The translations under genes were made by a program, and so were the position numbers. 64,000 nt of DNA from an uncultured Flavobacteriaceae bacterium (GTDB lineage Bacteria; Bacteroidota; Bacteroidia; Flavobacteriales; Flavobacteriaceae), in the NCBI GenBank assembly GCA_937959395.1, contig CALGLR010000028.1, positions 1 to 64,000 of the forward strand, given 5' to 3'. Positions 387-27,550 of this stretch are shown one piece after another. The notes under the pieces were generated by a model. That model made no database searches. It was not told where the DNA came from and was given only the letters and a program-made list of their open reading frames with translations. Numbering within the stretch: position 1 is the stretch's first letter; each line of letters begins with the position of its first letter.

Positions 387-3300
387 ATGAAGACTAAAAT
401 TACCCTCATTTTAGTGACACTGTTTTCCTTGTCACTATTTTCACAAAATCCTAGCGGTGAATTAAAAAGATGGCATAAAATTAGCTTATCTTTTAATGGT
501 CCAAATACTTCTGAAACAGCAAATCCTAATCCTTTTTCAGATTACCGTGTAGATGTTACTTTTACACACCCAGCATCTAATACCACTTATAACGTACCTG
601 GTTTCTATACAGGTTGCGACAATCCAGAAGAAAGCAGTTGTGATTCAGGAAACAAATGGAAAGTAAATTTTGCTCCAGATCAAAAAGGAGATTGGAATTG
701 GTCTGTCTCTTTTAAAACAGGAAGCGATGTCGCAATAAATGGCGGTGGTTCTAGCGGAGGCTTCATGGATGGAGATACTGGTTCATTTACAATAGACGAA
801 TCCAATAAAAGTGGGCGCGATTTTAGAGCCCCAAATAAAGGACGCTTACAATATGTTGGAGAACACTATCTAAGGCATTCTGGAACAGATTCTAATAATC
901 CTAATGGAGATTGGTTTGTAAAAGCTGGAGCAGATGCGCCAGAGAACACACTAGCATACGAAGACTTTGATAACACACCAAATAGAGGTAACAGGAGAAA
1001 AAACTGGACCCCTCACCAACAAGATTACAATGCTAATGAAGCGAGTTCTTATACATGGAAAAACGGGAAAGGAACCGAGCTTTTAGGTGTAGTAAACTAT
1101 TTATCGAGTAAAGGAGTTAATGCTTTTTCTTTTTTAACATTGAGCTTACATGGAGATGATGAAAATGTATTCCCTCATTTACTTAAAGTACCTGTAGCAA
1201 CATACAACGGCTATAATGACGGACAACAATGGAATCAAGGTGTTCATAAAGATCGTTTTGATATTTCAAAAATGGCACAATGGGAACGTATTTTTGAATA
1301 TGCCGATAAAAAAGGGCTGTATATGCACTTTAAGACTATGGAGACTGAAAATGATAATATCATGGACAACAATAATTTTGGAAAGCAGCGTAAATTGTAT
1401 TACAGAGAACTAATAGCTCGATTTGGGCACCATTTGGCTTTAAATTGGAATCTTACTGAAGAAACAACTTTAACAAATGAAGTGGCAAAATCTACCATTA
1501 ATTACATACAAGAAGTAGATCCTTACGATCATAATGTTGTTATCCATACCTATCCAGGTGAACAAGATCAAAGATATAATCCTTTATTAGGAAATAATTC
1601 TGGACTTACTGGAGCTTCTATACAAACTGGTATAGGAAACGTACATAGAGATGTAAAAAGATGGATTGATAAATCTAGAGATGCAGGAAAAAAATGGGTC
1701 GTAGCTAATGATGAACAAGGAAGTGCCCAAATTGGAGTACACAAAGATCCAATTGACATAAAAAAAGTAAGAGATAAAGTACTCTGGGGGACGTTAATGG
1801 CTGGAGGAGCAGGTGTAGAGTATTATTACGGCTACGATACAGATATTACAGATTTAAATGCCCAAGACCATCGATCTAGAGATGTAAAATACACACAAGC
1901 AGGACACGCTTTAAATTTCTTTAATAGCTATTTATTAGAATCACTACCAAATATGGTTTCTTCTGATGGATTAACGGGAAATAATAATGATTATGTTTTA
2001 GCTGAACCTAATAAAGTATATGCTGTTTATTTACAAAATGGTGGTAATACCAATATAAATTTACCAGCGGGCACTTGGCAAGTACAATGGTATAACCCTA
2101 GAACTGGCGGAAATCTTTCTGCATCTACAGTAATAACCAACTCTATTAGTGCACCAAATAACGAAGATTGGGTAGCCTTAATAAAAGGAGAAGCTACAGA
2201 TGATCCAAATGATGATCCAGACTGTAACTCTACAACTTCTGAAGCTGCGCCTTCAAACGATGCTTATTTACAAGGAACTACCTTATTTAATAATGCTGAA
2301 TTAAGAACAGAGAGCGGAAACAGAGTGACTTATCTTAAATTTACCGCTCCTTCTACTACTGAAACAATAACTGCTACAAAACTTAAACTTACTGTAAGTA
2401 CAGATGGAGGTAACGGCACTATTGAAATCTACAAAGGAAGTTCTAATAACTGGAATGAAACCAATCTTTCTAACACTAACAAACCTTCAGAAAACGGTTT
2501 ATTAGGAAGTTTAAATACCAATTACGGAGTTGGCCAAACTTACGAATGGCCTTTAACCGGAATTACTCAAGGTGAGACCATATCATTAATTGTAAAACAA
2601 ACTGGAGGAAATGATGTTTCCTTTTCTTCTAAAGAAGGAAGCAACGCACCTAAACTTGTTTTAGAGTATGGAGATTGCGATGATTGTACTACTTCTGTAA
2701 CAATGAATGCAATAACAGATTTTCCAAACTTCACTATTAATGGGTTTGCAGCTGGCTACATAGATAATAACCGTAATGCAATGGCCATAGACGCAAGCCA
2801 ATACAAAGATGAATTTGCTGCTGCTAGAGGAAGTTTCTCTGGGGATGATGGCGTCTATAATATTACGATGACTTCTTTAAAGGAATTAGACGGTGAGTCA
2901 AGCTATAAATTAAAAATTAATGGCACACTAGTTGGACAATTTCAAAACCCAACGACTACTGTTGATTATGACCCTCATACTTTCACATTTGATAATGTTA
3001 CAGTGGCAGATGGAGATACCATACAAGTTGAATTTGATTCGAATTCTAACGGAACAATTCCTGAAGGAAATGGATTTGCATATTCTAGAGGAAGATGGAC
3101 AAAACTTAAATTTGATTGTACAGATGGTAATGATGATCCTCCTACAGATGACGATTGTCCTGCTCTAGAAATTAATGGAGTCGCTGCTATTGAAGCAGAA
3201 CATTTTCACTCCATGGAACTTACAGATGTTAGAAAATGGTACGTAACCAATCAATCAACAAACAACAACCCAACACCAGATCCAGATCCAAACCATTTCA

Positions 3301-4016
3301 ACGGAGCCAGTTTTGGAGGGTATCTCGAAATTTTACCAGATACAAGAGTAACTGCGAATGACCCATTAACAGAAGGTGTTAATTTCACAAATGTTGCAGG
3401 TAAAATGACTATTGTTAACTACAAAGTGAAATTTCAAACCACTGGTAAATACTTTGTATGGGTTAGAGCATACTCTACTGGTGGAGAAGACAATGGTATA
3501 CATGTAGGTATAGATGGACAATGGCCAAACTCAGGAAAAAGAATGCAATGGTGCGAAGGCAAAAACCAATGGAAGTGGGCGAGCAAGCAAAGAACAGATG
3601 CAAACCATTGTGGCGAGCAGCAAAAAATATTCCTTAATGTTACAACTCCAGGCATTCATACCATTTCTATTTCTATGAGAGAAGATGGTTTCGAAATGGA
3701 TAAAATTGTTCTTAATAAAATATATAATAAACCTAATGGAACTGGACCCGATGAACAACTAGAAAACTGTAACTTGTCAACATCAAGTTATGAATTAAAC
3801 AATGAAATTAAACTTTTCCCTAACCCTGCATATAATAGTGTAACCATTAAGGGTGCTGAAGGAAAAGCTAATATTTACGATTTATATGGACGCAAAATAT
3901 TAAGTGAAATTAATATTAATGATTCCAATAATACCATTAATGTATCAACACTACCTTCTGGTATGTACTTACTAGTCTTTGACGACAATAGAGTTGCAAA
4001 ATTCTTAAAACAATAA
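387..4016 (+). CDS. Secreted multidomain glycoside hydrolase-like protein (DUF5060, TIM-barrel, CBM-like modules, T9SS type A tail)
   Basis: This is a 1209-residue exported protein, probably a polysaccharide-degrading enzyme. Residues 1-20 are a signal peptide ending in FSQ. A DUF5060-like beta-sandwich (about 25-135, with PDQKGDWNW) is followed by a TIM-barrel-like region (about 150-520). The barrel contains NWNLTEE (E358/E359) and a second acidic motif NDEQG (E443), which I infer to be the catalytic pair of a retaining hydrolase. A C-terminal sandwich (about 525-605) resembles the 'putative collagen-binding' domain that often follows such barrels. Next come a CBM96/DNRLR-like module (about 612-765), an unassigned beta module (about 767-911) and a CBM6-like module (about 923-1124). 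The last 75 residues, with LFPNPAYNS and a C-terminal lysine-rich end, are a T9SS type A sorting domain. The substrate cannot be read from the sequence. A hairpin terminator follows directly. Confidence 0.8.
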   Translation: MKTKITLILVTLFSLSLFSQNPSGELKRWHKISLSFNGPNTSETANPNPFSDYRVDVTFTHPASNTTYNVPGFYTGCDNPEESSCDSGNKWKVNFAPDQKGDWNWSVSFKTGSDVAINGGGSSGGFMDGDTGSFTIDESNKSGRDFRAPNKGRLQYVGEHYLRHSGTDSNNPNGDWFVKAGADAPENTLAYEDFDNTPNRGNRRKNWTPHQQDYNANEASSYTWKNGKGTELLGVVNYLSSKGVNAFSFLTLSLHGDDENVFPHLLKVPVATYNGYNDGQQWNQGVHKDRFDISKMAQWERIFEYADKKGLYMHFKTMETENDNIMDNNNFGKQRKLYYRELIARFGHHLALNWNLTEETTLTNEVAKSTINYIQEVDPYDHNVVIHTYPGEQDQRYNPLLGNNSGLTGASIQTGIGNVHRDVKRWIDKSRDAGKKWVVANDEQGSAQIGVHKDPIDIKKVRDKVLWGTLMAGGAGVEYYYGYDTDITDLNAQDHRSRDVKYTQAGHALNFFNSYLLESLPNMVSSDGLTGNNNDYVLAEPNKVYAVYLQNGGNTNINLPAGTWQVQWYNPRTGGNLSASTVITNSISAPNNEDWVALIKGEATDDPNDDPDCNSTTSEAAPSNDAYLQGTTLFNNAELRTESGNRVTYLKFTAPSTTETITATKLKLTVSTDGGNGTIEIYKGSSNNWNETNLSNTNKPSENGLLGSLNTNYGVGQTYEWPLTGITQGETISLIVKQTGGNDVSFSSKEGSNAPKLVLEYGDCDDCTTSVTMNAITDFPNFTINGFAAGYIDNNRNAMAIDASQYKDEFAAARGSFSGDDGVYNITMTSLKELDGESSYKLKINGTLVGQFQNPTTTVDYDPHTFTFDNVTVADGDTIQVEFDSNSNGTIPEGNGFAYSRGRWTKLKFDCTDGNDDPPTDDDCPALEINGVAAIEAEHFHSMELTDVRKWYVTNQSTNNNPTPDPDPNHFNGASFGGYLEILPDTRVTANDPLTEGVNFTNVAGKMTIVNYKVKFQTTGKYFVWVRAYSTGGEDNGIHVGIDGQWPNSGKRMQWCEGKNQWKWASKQRTDANHCGEQQKIFLNVTTPGIHTISISMREDGFEMDKIVLNKIYNKPNGTGPDEQLENCNLSTSSYELNNEIKLFPNPAYNSVTIKGAEGKANIYDLYGRKILSEININDSNNTINVSTLPSGMYLLVFDDNRVAKFLKQ

Positions 4017-24139: not shown

Positions 24140-25342
24140 ATGAAAAAACTATTTCTACTATTTTCAATTATTTTATTTAGTTGTGCTGATGATGCGCAGA
24201 GAAATAGACTAATAAAAGCCCTGAACTTTGAAGATGAACTTACTCAAAGTTTTGTTGTAAAAACCGATTCTGTTATTAATATTAAAGGTAAATACGGTAT
24301 CAAAATAAGTGTAAAAAAGAAAGATTTGAATGGACTTATTTCTGATTCTCTAAAAATTAATCTCATTGAATTGTTCGATATCAATGATTTTTTAATGGCA
24401 AACGCCTCAACAATTTCTAATGGTAAATGGCTGATTTCTGCTGGTGCTTTTAAAATTGACATATATGGAGATGGCCCCTTAGAACTCAAAGAAGGAAAAA
24501 CTATTAAAATTGAATTCCCACTTAGCAACAAAGAAAAGAATATGGAATTATTTTATGGTGATAGAACGGCAAATGGTGATCTAAATTGGAGCAAAGCAAA
24601 CCTAAAAATACAAAATGAAAATTATTATATTATTGGATATCAAGATTCACAAATCATAGATGAAGAATTAACAAGTCAATACGGTGGCATAGAAACTTAT
24701 AGAAAAACCATAGAGATAGACAGCTTAGGTTTTCTTCCTTTACAATTAATAAAAAGTGAAATAAATAATGTTATTATAGATAAAGATACTATTCGTATTT
24801 ATCAAAAATACAAATCTTCGGAAATCGATGCTCTTTATAACGATACTGATGATTTAGCTGATGATGTAGCTCCAAGTGTATTACTATCACTATCAAAAAG
24901 ACAAACAGATTCTATTTTAAATGATTCCATAGTTCAGATTAAAAAAGATAATCTTAGAATCAAAAAACAAAACTTAAATTATGAAAAGTATAATGATGCA
25001 GACAATAGAATTTTCAAAAATATAGAATCAACAAATCTAGGTTGGATTAACGTTGACAAATTTGCTCCAGATGAAGAAAAAGTTTCCATAAATTTAAAAA
25101 ACATAATCAACAATTCAAGAACATATATCATAGACAAAAAAAACAAAACAGTTTTAAGTGTCTATAAAAACAAGTTAAGCATTCCTATAAATAGAAGTTT
25201 TCAAATTATTTCATTTGGCTTGAAAGATGATGTCTTTCAAGTTTTTAAAAAAACTGTAAGGTTTTCTGAGAATAGCGAACTAAATATGAAGTATAAAAAG
25301 ATTAGAGAAAACCAGATCAAGGGTTTTCTAAAATTAGATTAA
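24140..25342 (+). CDS. Uncharacterised lipoprotein
   Basis: A 400-residue protein of unknown function. The signal sequence MKKLFLLFSIILFSC gives a lipobox with C15 as the lipidation site. A beta-rich region (about 40-190) contains IYGDGPLELKEGKTIKIEFPL, NLKIQNENYYIIGYQ and EIDSLGFLPLQLI. A helical stretch follows (about 245-280, Lys/Asn-rich), then GWINVDKFAPDEEKVSINL and a final beta region. I recognise no family with confidence; the 'GWINVDKF' segment is reminiscent of envelope proteins in which it precedes a carboxypeptidase-regulatory-like sandwich, but this is weak. It follows murI with a one-base gap, which points to a cell-envelope role by context only. Confidence 0.65.
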   Translation: MKKLFLLFSIILFSCADDAQRNRLIKALNFEDELTQSFVVKTDSVINIKGKYGIKISVKKKDLNGLISDSLKINLIELFDINDFLMANASTISNGKWLISAGAFKIDIYGDGPLELKEGKTIKIEFPLSNKEKNMELFYGDRTANGDLNWSKANLKIQNENYYIIGYQDSQIIDEELTSQYGGIETYRKTIEIDSLGFLPLQLIKSEINNVIIDKDTIRIYQKYKSSEIDALYNDTDDLADDVAPSVLLSLSKRQTDSILNDSIVQIKKDNLRIKKQNLNYEKYNDADNRIFKNIESTNLGWINVDKFAPDEEKVSINLKNIINNSRTYIIDKKNKTVLSVYKNKLSIPINRSFQIISFGLKDDVFQVFKKTVRFSENSELNMKYKKIRENQIKGFLKLD

Positions 25343-25359: not shown

Positions 25360-25716
25360 ATGCAAAAACTCATTTTCGTTTACAGTGCCAATTCAGGAAT
25401 TGGCAATATGGTTTTAGATGTGGCACATAAAATTTTTAGCCCTAAAACCTACGCTTGTAATTTATGTGCGATTACTTTCGATACGTTTTCTGAAAACAAA
25501 TCTTGGAAACAATTTAGAGAGCGTAGCACCCTTAATATGGAGTTTTTACATATTGATGAATTTGAAAGTAAATACGATATAAAAACCTTTAATTACCCCG
25601 TAGTTCTTTCAGTTGAAAACAACAATTTTAAAGAATTTCTTTCGGTTGATACTATTAATAAAATACAATCTGTTGAAGAATTGACTTTGGTAATTGAAAA
25701 AGGGTTTCAAAATTGA
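25360..25716 (+). CDS. Conserved small protein with a CxxC motif, function unknown
   Basis: A 118-residue soluble protein. It starts MQKLIFVYSANSGIGNMVLD, a beta strand followed by a small loop and helix. It has CNLC at about 34-37, then ITFDTFSENKSWKQF, a LHIDEFESKY segment and a C-terminal YPVVLSVENN strand. Similar proteins in flavobacteria are sometimes labelled 'GTPase', but I see no G-domain motif (no GxxxxGKS, no NKxD). A thioredoxin-like or redox role through the CNLC pair is a guess. It lies 17 bases after the lipoprotein gene, probably the last gene of the murI transcript, and is followed by an intergenic repeat and a terminator. Confidence 0.6.
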   Translation: MQKLIFVYSANSGIGNMVLDVAHKIFSPKTYACNLCAITFDTFSENKSWKQFRERSTLNMEFLHIDEFESKYDIKTFNYPVVLSVENNNFKEFLSVDTINKIQSVEELTLVIEKGFQN

Positions 25717-25897: not shown

Positions 25898-26405
25898 ATT
25901 TAAACCAACTTGAGTATTCTACATAATTATCTGCAATTCGGTTAATTTCTCCGTTTATTAATTCTTTACTAATGTCTTTTACCTTTTTAGCTGGAACACC
26001 AGCATAAATGCTTCCAGATTCGACAATTGTGTTTTTTGTAACTACGGCTCCTGCTGCTACAATACTATTACTTTCAACAATACAATCGTCCATAACAATA
26101 CTCCCCATTCCAATTAAAACATTATCATGAATTGTACAGCCATGCACTATAGCATTATGGCCAATAGACACATTATTTCCTATTGTAGTTGGTGATTTTT
26201 GATACGTTGCATGAATTACTGCTCCATCTTGTATATTTACTTTATTTCCTAATTTTATAAAGTGAACGTCCCCTCTTAAAACAGCATTAAACCATATGCT
26301 GCATTGTTTCCCAATAGTTACTTCTCCAACGATAGTAGCGTTTTCAGCAACATAACAATCTTCAGGGATTTGTGGCGTTTTATTTCTTATTGTTTTTATT
26401 ATCAT
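25896..26405 (-). CDS. Gamma-carbonic anhydrase family protein (left-handed beta-helix)
   Basis: A 169-residue hexapeptide-repeat protein (IVGEVTIG, TTIGNNVSIGHNAIVHG, NSIVAAGAVV) that should fold as a trimeric left-handed beta-helix. The three metal-ligand histidines of gamma-carbonic anhydrases are present as H65, H83 and H88, and the conserved R44 and D46 are in LRGDV. Bacteroidota proteins of this type are often called YrdA or PaaY-like, and real CO2 hydration activity is not certain. It begins 12 bases after the toxin-like gene and may share its transcript. No signal peptide. Confidence 0.88.
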   Translation of the reverse strand: MIIKTIRNKTPQIPEDCYVAENATIVGEVTIGKQCSIWFNAVLRGDVHFIKLGNKVNIQDGAVIHATYQKSPTTIGNNVSIGHNAIVHGCTIHDNVLIGMGSIVMDDCIVESNSIVAAGAVVTKNTIVESGSIYAGVPAKKVKDISKELINGEINRIADNYVEYSSWFK

Positions 26406-26417
26406 AATTAGTAATAA

Positions 26418-26840
26418 TCATGTTTCAACTTTAACTAATTTATCAAAGTGTATTTTTTTCTTAGATTCATCTAATGATAACCTATATAAGTCTTCTGATT
26501 CAATACATTCTAAAACTTTTTTATACAAATAAGCTTTAGACTCGTCATTCATATTTCCAGAGCCTAGAGAACCTGTTTTTGGATGAACATACATAAGATA
26601 TAAGGATTCTTTCTTTATCAGAATAAGAAAATAAATTCTAAAACCGCCTCTGCCGCCTAAGCGCTTTTTAATATATGGAGCATCATTACTATGATTCAGC
26701 CTTACACCTGAACAAAGATCTTGGCTAGTCTTTTCAAAAAAATAATTAATTATTTCTTTTTCTATTGTTCTATACGATTTTTTAGATTTTATTTTGTCAA
26801 ATTCTACTTTAAAATCTTCTAAACAATATAAATTAATCAT
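26418..26840 (-). CDS. RelE/ParE-like toxin candidate
   Basis: A 140-residue basic-centred protein. An N-terminal helical hairpin (about 7-40: EDFKVEFDKIKSKKSYRTIE) is followed by a beta-rich core: VRLNHSNDAPYIKKRLGG (about 46-63), GGFRIYFLILI (65-75) and LYLMYVHPKTG (80-90). This helix - RLGG - strand - strand - 'VH' layout is that of RelE/ParE/HigB-type ribonucleases, with R60, R68 and H86 as possible functional residues. Typical members are 85-110 residues; this one has a longer helical C-terminus. Its start codon overlaps the stop of the upstream gene (TAATG), as in many antitoxin-toxin pairs. No homologue could be searched, so the toxin role is inferred. Confidence 0.55.
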   Translation of the reverse strand: MINLYCLEDFKVEFDKIKSKKSYRTIEKEIINYFFEKTSQDLCSGVRLNHSNDAPYIKKRLGGRGGFRIYFLILIKKESLYLMYVHPKTGSLGSGNMNDESKAYLYKKVLECIESEDLYRLSLDESKKKIHFDKLVKVET

Positions 26841-27304
26841 TAAATAAGAGAAAGTTTTGTTGTAGTTTCAACAAAATCTGGCATTTCTGGAAGAAAGAAA
26901 AATACTGACTCTAAATCTTCATAAGATTCTTTTAATTCATCAATTGAATTTTTAAAATCTTTTATTTCTTCTTTTGCAATTCCTTTTTTTCTAAAAGAAT
27001 TCATTGAAATATATTGTCGAATTAAAGAACTTCGCAAATCTTTGGCTGATGATATTAAGTCATTTAAAAGCATTAAGCTCTCCTCTTCTAAATCATTAAA
27101 CCAAGTTAATTTATCTATTCTTTCAGTAATATTATAAATTTTATCTGTTTTTATTTTCAATTCACTTTTAAAACCAAGAATAGCATCTAAAAGAGAATTA
27201 ACTGTTTCTTCATCTAATATAGGAGTCTTCTTCTCTTGAAAAGAAAAGCTTCTTATATTAGAAAAAGTATCAACAATTTCTGATTTATTGGATAAACATT
27301 CCAT
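26840..27304 (-). CDS. Partner of the RelE-like protein, antitoxin candidate (helical, unknown family)
   Basis: A 154-residue protein of unknown family. It appears almost wholly helical (SLLDAILGFKSELKIKTDKIYNI, then LMLLNDLISSAKDLRSSLI, then IDELKESYEDLESVFFFL). I see no helix-turn-helix, ribbon-helix-helix or AbrB motif. It is the first gene of a two-gene unit: its stop shares a base with the start of the RelE-like gene, and a TATATTTG -7 box lies 42 bases upstream. Position, size and overlap suggest an antitoxin that neutralises by direct binding and may not regulate its own promoter in the usual way. That is inference from layout only. Confidence 0.5.
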   Translation of the reverse strand: MECLSNKSEIVDTFSNIRSFSFQEKKTPILDEETVNSLLDAILGFKSELKIKTDKIYNITERIDKLTWFNDLEEESLMLLNDLISSAKDLRSSLIRQYISMNSFRKKGIAKEEIKDFKNSIDELKESYEDLESVFFFLPEMPDFVETTTKLSLI

Positions 27305-27345: not shown

Positions 27346-27353
27346 CAAATATA
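27346..27353 (-). promoter_or_regulatory. -7 box for the toxin-antitoxin-like unit (TATATTTG)
   Basis: On the minus strand TATATTTG exactly matches TAnnTTTG. It lies 42 bases before the start of the first gene of the two-gene unit. No clear -33 element. Confidence 0.5.
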
Positions 27354-27550
27354 AATAACTAAGGCTAGCGAACGATATAATATACAGCCAATTCTATGCC
27401 AAAAAGTATTTTTTATAATTTTATTAATAACGTAATATTAGCAAGAAAAGTATACACTAATTTTGCATCTATAGACTGTTGTCAACCTTTCTAATCTTAA
27501 AATAAATTTAATCTTTAAATTGTTGAAAACTGTTTTTGCTCGGGAATCCA

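Follow-up and report, generated by a model that had tools for sequence, protein, structure and literature searches.

A candidate toxin-antitoxin pair with a helical partner in a cassette-like unit of integron-like arrays in Flavobacteriaceae

Gene content of the locus

The window (the whole 64,000-nucleotide stretch of contig CALGLR010000028.1 analysed here, from an uncultured Flavobacteriaceae bacterium) contains a pair of genes on the minus strand, together with the putative remains of a mobile unit. The features are as follows.

26407-26413, minus strand: changed cassette end, just after the toxin stop, which replaces the GGCTAAC of W. sediminis and genome G230
26418-26840, minus strand: candidate toxin of 140 aa with a predicted RelE/HigB fold (open frame; AlphaFold2 model; HigB2 match; PF06296-like profile match)
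26840-27304, minus strand: all-helical partner of 154 aa, candidate antitoxin (open frame; AlphaFold2 model of helices only; recurring upstream position)
27346-27353, minus strand: TATATTTG, promoter-like box of the pair (recurs upstream of the pair in other loci)
27363-27483, approximate limits, minus strand: decayed remnant of an attC-like element, on the promoter side of the unit (can be aligned with the elements that precede other pairs)

Both frames are open at 26418-27304, where a preliminary description had placed two genes. As it had also reported, the toxin and partner genes share one base in TAATG, and the pair has a promoter box of its own: TATATTTG begins 49 nt before the partner ATG. 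This box was found at -49/-50 in the window, G230, G220, W. sediminis and A. pacificus, at -42 in a Lutibacter MAG, and at -66 in viral contig L056. Furthermore, a hexapeptide-repeat (gamma-carbonic-anhydrase-like) gene does start at 26405, 12 bases after the toxin stop.

The candidate toxin had no match in Pfam, and the partner had only four weak Pfam matches, all below the cut-off. Neither protein had a match in NCBIfam or PADLOC (E up to 10), and in PHROGs the pair gave only weak matches, to families of unknown function. In addition, two adjoining ORFs of the window, 25360-25716 (plus strand, 118 aa) and 24140-25342 (plus strand, 400 aa), had no significant Pfam family.

Fold and family of the candidate toxin

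An AlphaFold2 model of the candidate toxin was built on ten family members (pLDDT 88.4, pTM 0.85). It runs from a strand through two helices, a short helix, three strands and a helix to two further strands. HigB2 was the top Foldseek match (E 3.4e-3; no match at E <= 0.001). With VIA-align, the model matched HigB2 (5mje) at Z 10.0, with an rmsd of 2.9 over 101 residues, followed by 6af4 at Z 9.2 and Cami1 at Z 9.1. The top 34 of 50 VIA-align rows were toxin-antitoxin entries, Cami1, or H. pylori HP0892/HP0894. The RelE-like fold first suggested for the 140-residue protein is thus upheld by structure prediction, and the predicted fold is that of the RelE superfamily. However, the helical C-terminal extension described for it was not recovered: helix 99-115 sits within the part that matches HigB, and beyond it there are two short strands (119-123 and 130-134).

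The toxin sequence had no match in the PDB. The profile of the toxin family was compared with 15 proteins from phrog_5869/PF06296-type loci, and it matched these PF06296-like proteins over residues 2-114 (profile-profile, 95.3%, E 2e-8; 94.7% without the most divergent family member). R68 and K88 of the toxin align with the invariant arginine and lysine of the PF06296-like group, and K58 stands opposite an arginine of that group. R60 is invariant within the toxin's own family and stands opposite no conserved residue of the group, and a further invariant lysine of the group, K64, is absent from the toxin family.

Two candidates were set aside. The gene of G382 (L017) matched the toxin-family profile at E 2.4e-4; it is a PF06296 RelE with a 68-aa upstream ORF, and it was excluded as a family locus. 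The family phrog_5869 was rejected as that of the pair; some members of the present family match it weakly, and the listed phrog_5869 loci are RelE-type genes with short antitoxins, which look HTH-like by eye where they come second. As a separate observation, the toxin relative of G127 (L005:1120-1911, minus strand) has 263 aa, with about 120 extra C-terminal residues that match no Pfam family.

The helical partner

The partner was modelled with AlphaFold2 on eleven members, and the model consists of helices only (pLDDT 88.5, pTM 0.68). This agrees with the view of the preliminary description that the partner is wholly helical and of no recognised family: no family was found for it in Pfam, NCBIfam or PADLOC, and no DNA-binding family in Pfam or NCBIfam. 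The matches of the model in the PDB were generic helical bundles (best Foldseek E 0.32; best VIA-align Z 11.3). They were set aside; even the highest Z is under the caution level of the tool. Its weak PHROGs matches (best E 7.7e-4), which resemble coiled-coil matches, were likewise discarded. In addition, a protein of G712 that matched the partner profile (E 7e-4) was excluded as a secreted-looking coiled-coil protein.

Among the partners, mean pairwise identity was highest in the C-terminal helices (0.58 in helix 111-140 and 0.50 in helix 142-153), compared with 0.42 in the first two helices and 0.49 in the third. Because identity is highest there, we would place the putative toxin contact in the conserved C-terminal helices.

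Occurrence and selection of the pair

The toxin searches gave matches in 6 of 299 genomes of the window's family, 8 of 395 genomes of the class and 4 of 395 genomes of the phylum, one of the last being the G382 RelE; the three genome samples overlap. A search with the partner profile gave matches in 4 of 395 genomes of the order, namely three family loci and one weak match that was discarded. Within the genus, the partner is present in one of three genomes.

In total, 18 loci were compared, including five from a scan of genome contigs and two viral contigs. They are the window, G230, G220, W. sediminis, A. pacificus, the Lutibacter MAG, a Bacteroidetes MAG, Pseudarcicella, G127, G241, the two viral contigs, G1177, G1100, G1046, G1230, G1109 and G1340. 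The genes had been proposed to form a pair, and all 18 loci bear this out: an ORF of partner size (140-171 codons) lies directly upstream of the toxin and on its strand. In the 14 loci with both frames open and a clear toxin start, the genes overlap by 1 nt (six loci) or 4 nt (three loci), or lie 0-2 nt apart (five loci). The upstream gene is clearly homologous to the partner in 14 of the 18 loci, for example in G241 (hhalign, 96.9%), G1177 (HMM, E 5e-47) and G1100 (E 6e-21), and the homology is no more than suggestive in the other four (E 0.0017-0.12). These four, L092, L093, L094 and L095 (G1046, G1230, G1109 and G1340), hold divergent toxin relatives whose upstream gene, of similar size, barely matches the partner profile. 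Helical partners of more than one type may thus occur with the toxin.

Compared with the window copy, NG86 dN/dS was 0.05-0.26 for the toxin (defined in five of six comparisons, with dS mostly saturated) and 0.11-0.33 for the partner (eight of eight comparisons). These values indicate that both genes are under purifying selection. Three loci combine a broken toxin frame with an open partner frame. The breaks in A. pacificus and G220 are one-base frame changes at different positions, and that of G1109 is an in-frame stop; in draft genomes, such breaks could be sequencing errors.

On the viral side, contig L020 carries a terminase small subunit gene and an endonuclease-like gene, and L021 a tail-fibre-like gene and a moron-class membrane protein. 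Plasmid and phage records, searched with the window toxin and the L006 toxin as queries, gave no match. Scans of viral sequences with the L006 toxin, the L013 toxin and A12 gave no additional contig.

A decayed unit at an otherwise empty site

In the congeners G138 and G679, alignments showed that the hexapeptide gene adjoins a LytTR regulator gene, at distances of about 78 and 18 nt, respectively. In the window, about 1.14 kb lies between the two genes, and the site is empty, without the pair, in both of the two congeners. The unit of the window stops one base short of the hexapeptide start codon. These features point to a decayed single copy of the unit, inserted just before the gamma-carbonic-anhydrase-like gene.

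It had been suggested that this enzyme might be linked to the pair by co-transcription. However, the pair is an insertion between the enzyme and LytTR genes, and the enzyme gene was not found beside it in the other loci with ORFs listed, where it has other neighbours. A functional link is therefore not supported. With an empty site in two of two congeners, the association looks incidental. Read-through from the promoter of the pair into the hexapeptide gene is possible; we found no sign of a selected link between them. A different LytTR-like gene, noticed by eye upstream of the G230 copy, was taken as a coincidence.

The unit itself was recognised by blastn among ten loci, and its edges nearly coincide in the window, G230, G220, W. 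sediminis and A. pacificus. The common unit consists of the upstream element, the promoter and the pair. In W. sediminis and A. pacificus, it is about 1.08 kb long and lies within arrays, between attC-like elements of about 131 nt, and blastn found repeats of about 120-165 nt on its flanks. In W. sediminis and G230, the unit ends GTTAGCCATA and TATGGCTAAC are fully reverse-complementary (10 of 10 nt); they are one base off in A. pacificus and changed in G220 and the window. The comparison suggests that the pair is a cassette-like mobile unit, a point that the preliminary description had missed.

The remnant element of the window can be aligned with those that precede the pair in W. sediminis, A. 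pacificus, G220 and G230. By the element model R1, no attC-like element was found in the window at E 0.1, and neither strand of the remnant, treated as single-stranded DNA, folds better than shuffled sequences (z 0.71 and 1.07). W. sediminis elements gave z from -1.25 to -5.03 in eight such foldings. The aligned elements share a stem of 16 pairs, in 8 of which both sides have changed. In addition, an element-like match (E 1e-7) was found about 240 nt upstream of the pair in the Lutibacter MAG. Rfam gave no match on the repeats of five loci other than the window; its sole match in those loci was to a trp leader, in L055. Within the A. pacificus array, L012:1789-2199 and 3091-3502 carry near-identical repeats of 250 nt and 168 nt that lie 1.3 kb apart, as from a duplicated cassette.

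Arrays and neighbouring recombinases in the family

R1 elements were found in 10 of 12 carrier or congener genomes, with none in G127 and Pseudarcicella; 150 candidates were scored per genome, and W. sediminis had 135 elements and the window's own genome 12. They were also found in 132 of 149 sampled genomes of the window's family, which we take to be Flavobacteriaceae since A. pacificus belongs there; the numbers per genome are lower bounds because 22 candidates were scored in each. In 15 stretches picked for their matches (196,543 bases), there were 164 elements. Long arrays of attC-like elements of about 131 nt, all in one orientation and with cassette ends that complement each other, occur in L071-L083 (G1008, which is W. 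sediminis, and G220, G153, G014 and G113).

To compare cassette ends, 161 of the 164 elements were taken (the three omitted were two from L085 and an incomplete one from L078). Both cores were present in 159 of them, giving 140 neighbouring pairs 150-2500 nt apart. In 130 of the 140 pairs, the 6 nt after GTT are the exact reverse complement of the 6 nt before the next AAC, compared with 7 of 159 within one element, 2 of 140 in reversed order and 2.2% of random pairs. Cassettes that had once closed to circles would leave such reverse-complementary ends. Furthermore, of 107 ORFs of at least 90 aa in six stretches, 99 lie antisense to R1. The pair runs with R1, and so it is reversed within its array; this reversed pair carries its own promoter. 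Another cassette of the same array holds a ParE/ParD pair (L009:6254-6794, minus strand).

Tyrosine recombinases of 375-401 aa adjoin the arrays of W. sediminis, G220 (two) and A. pacificus, and the 3' end of each gene points towards the array; the copy of the window genome is at a contig end. Among 12 further genomes (nine are single contigs), such a recombinase was found at E 1e-60 or better in 11; in G071, which has elements, no such recombinase was found. Among the matches listed, 8 of these 11 genomes have an element 1.5-25 kb from the 3' end of the recombinase, with R1 pointing to the recombinase. The sole element listed for G131 is 0.5 Mb away from it, and none is listed for G061 and G123. 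As a side observation, contig C1 of G220 has many near-equal tyrosine recombinase matches of about 298 codons (for example, 1241713-1242534, 2683871-2684692 and 2933383-2934204), some of them near attC-like elements.

Against the integron-integrase model TIGR02249, three array recombinases scored 192-211 bits, above XerC or XerD and under the cut-off of 265, and they skip about 60 positions of the model. NF040815 (XerA; tyrosine recombinase/integron integrase) equals or beats TIGR02249 in two of the three, and one of the three passes its cut-off. The TIGR02249 cut-off was reached in none of 12 genomes, and sub-threshold matches, which also occur in 13 of 14 control genomes, carry little weight alone. 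Since the recombinase stays below this cut-off, we call the arrays integron-like and do not file them as integrons. At the level of sequence, the putative integron-like platform is well supported.

Discussion

We consider it quite likely that the pair is a two-gene toxin-antitoxin (TA) module packed in a mobile gene cassette, and the partner is most likely a new, helical type of antitoxin. In the proposed mechanism, the 140-aa protein would act as an mRNA endonuclease of the RelE/HigB type that depends on the ribosome and relies on conserved basic residues, among them R68 and K88 (also K58 and R60). The 154-aa partner, encoded first, would be expressed from the cassette's own promoter and bind the toxin directly, probably via its conserved C-terminal helices, so as to cover the active face. 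The partner would probably not act as a usual RHH/HTH-type repressor of the operon, because it has no recognisable DNA-binding domain; such domains are widespread, though not universal, in type II antitoxins. Cells that lose the cassette would be left with the toxin, and retention of the cassette would thus be favoured.

The patchy spread and the viral contigs would also suit a phage-borne or anti-phage module, in which infection frees the RelE-like nuclease from its partner and the host stops. Such a module would share the TA chemistry and differ in trigger and benefit, serving defence or phage competition in place of cassette upkeep. Viral contigs account for two of the 18 loci, one with a terminase small subunit gene and the other with a tail-fibre-like gene. 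However, the pair has no PADLOC family, and a search of 50,697 phage records gave no match to the window or L006 toxin; we regard this explanation as possible but unlikely. It is very unlikely, in our judgement, that the RelE-like protein is no toxin and serves instead in house-kept RNA binding or regulation, with the helical partner as a subunit. The loss of the invariant lysine of the PF06296-like toxins could be read in this way, but a TA pair better explains the strain-specific presence (one of three genus genomes), the insertion where congeners have an empty site and the decayed toxin frames beside open partners.

For the arrays, the question is whether the repeats belong to another family, such as REP or MITE-like hairpins moved by a different enzyme, with the pair merely lying between two of them. 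The sub-threshold TIGR02249 scores in all 12 genomes, the similar matches in 13 of 14 controls and the strength of NF040815 in two of three array recombinases are compatible with this. Nevertheless, the exact 6-nt reverse complementarity of cassette ends in 130 of 140 neighbouring pairs (2.2% at random), the single orientation of 99 of 107 ORFs, double-sided change in 8 of 16 stem pairs and a recombinase on the expected side of the arrays argue for cassettes, and we think such repeats a rather improbable source of the pattern. Returning to the cassette reading, we lean towards a broader proposal. Flavobacteriaceae would carry an unrecognised, family-wide integron-type platform, with a recombinase that lacks the IntI-specific stretch and is read toward arrays of hairpin sites. 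The window pair would be one of its TA cassettes, a RelE-like toxin with a new class of helical antitoxin, which has left its array and is now alone in the chromosome.

Several known systems resemble parts of this picture. HigB/RelE toxins (the PF06296 group; HigB2 of Vibrio, HigB1 of M. tuberculosis and E. coli RelE) share the fold predicted for the window toxin, in which R68 and K88 fall where the PF06296-like group has its invariant arginine and lysine. The window toxin differs from them by the lack of a Pfam match and of K64 and by two extra C-terminal strands; in addition, the partner gene comes first and the partner is of another type. Antitoxins without a DNA-binding domain have been described for three-component systems, as stated in part of PMC5086665. 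By description, PaaA2 (PaaR2-PaaA2-ParE2) is similar, since a RelE/ParE-type toxin is held there by a partner without a recognised DNA-binding domain. However, PaaA2 belongs to a three-gene operon with a separate repressor, whereas the window pair has two genes and a predicted folded partner of five to six helices.

The TA cassettes of chromosomal integrons likewise place a TA pair beside a hairpin recombination site, and passages of PMC8618304 name TA systems among the common cassette functions and Bacteroidota among the phyla with integrons. In contrast to these cassettes, the attC-like elements here follow a separate consensus, the recombinase scores under the integron-integrase cut-off, and the toxin and partner types have no family in the libraries searched. 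In chromosomal integrons of Treponema, the integrase gene is likewise transcribed towards the array, co-directionally with the cassette genes (part of PMC3607928); these belong to another phylum, and the recombinase here skips about 60 positions of TIGR02249. According to a section of the IntegronFinder 2.0 paper (PMC9024848), only In0 elements had previously been found in Bacteroidetes, and one complete integron was added, in Salinibacter ruber. Among the listed titles and abstracts of open full-text papers, we found neither such arrays in Flavobacteriaceae nor a description of the window pair. The pair is likely a new TA variant on an integron-like platform.

In this pair, a RelE-type toxin family is joined to a partner that differs from the usual DNA-binding antitoxins, and another route of silencing and regulating such toxins thereby becomes testable. 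Furthermore, it leads to cassette arrays across a large, mostly marine bacterial family, and these arrays contain many uncharacterised genes. The integron-like platform is possibly a larger discovery than the TA pair. If the recombinase acts on the hairpins, integron-type gene capture would be common in a group where it has hardly been known.
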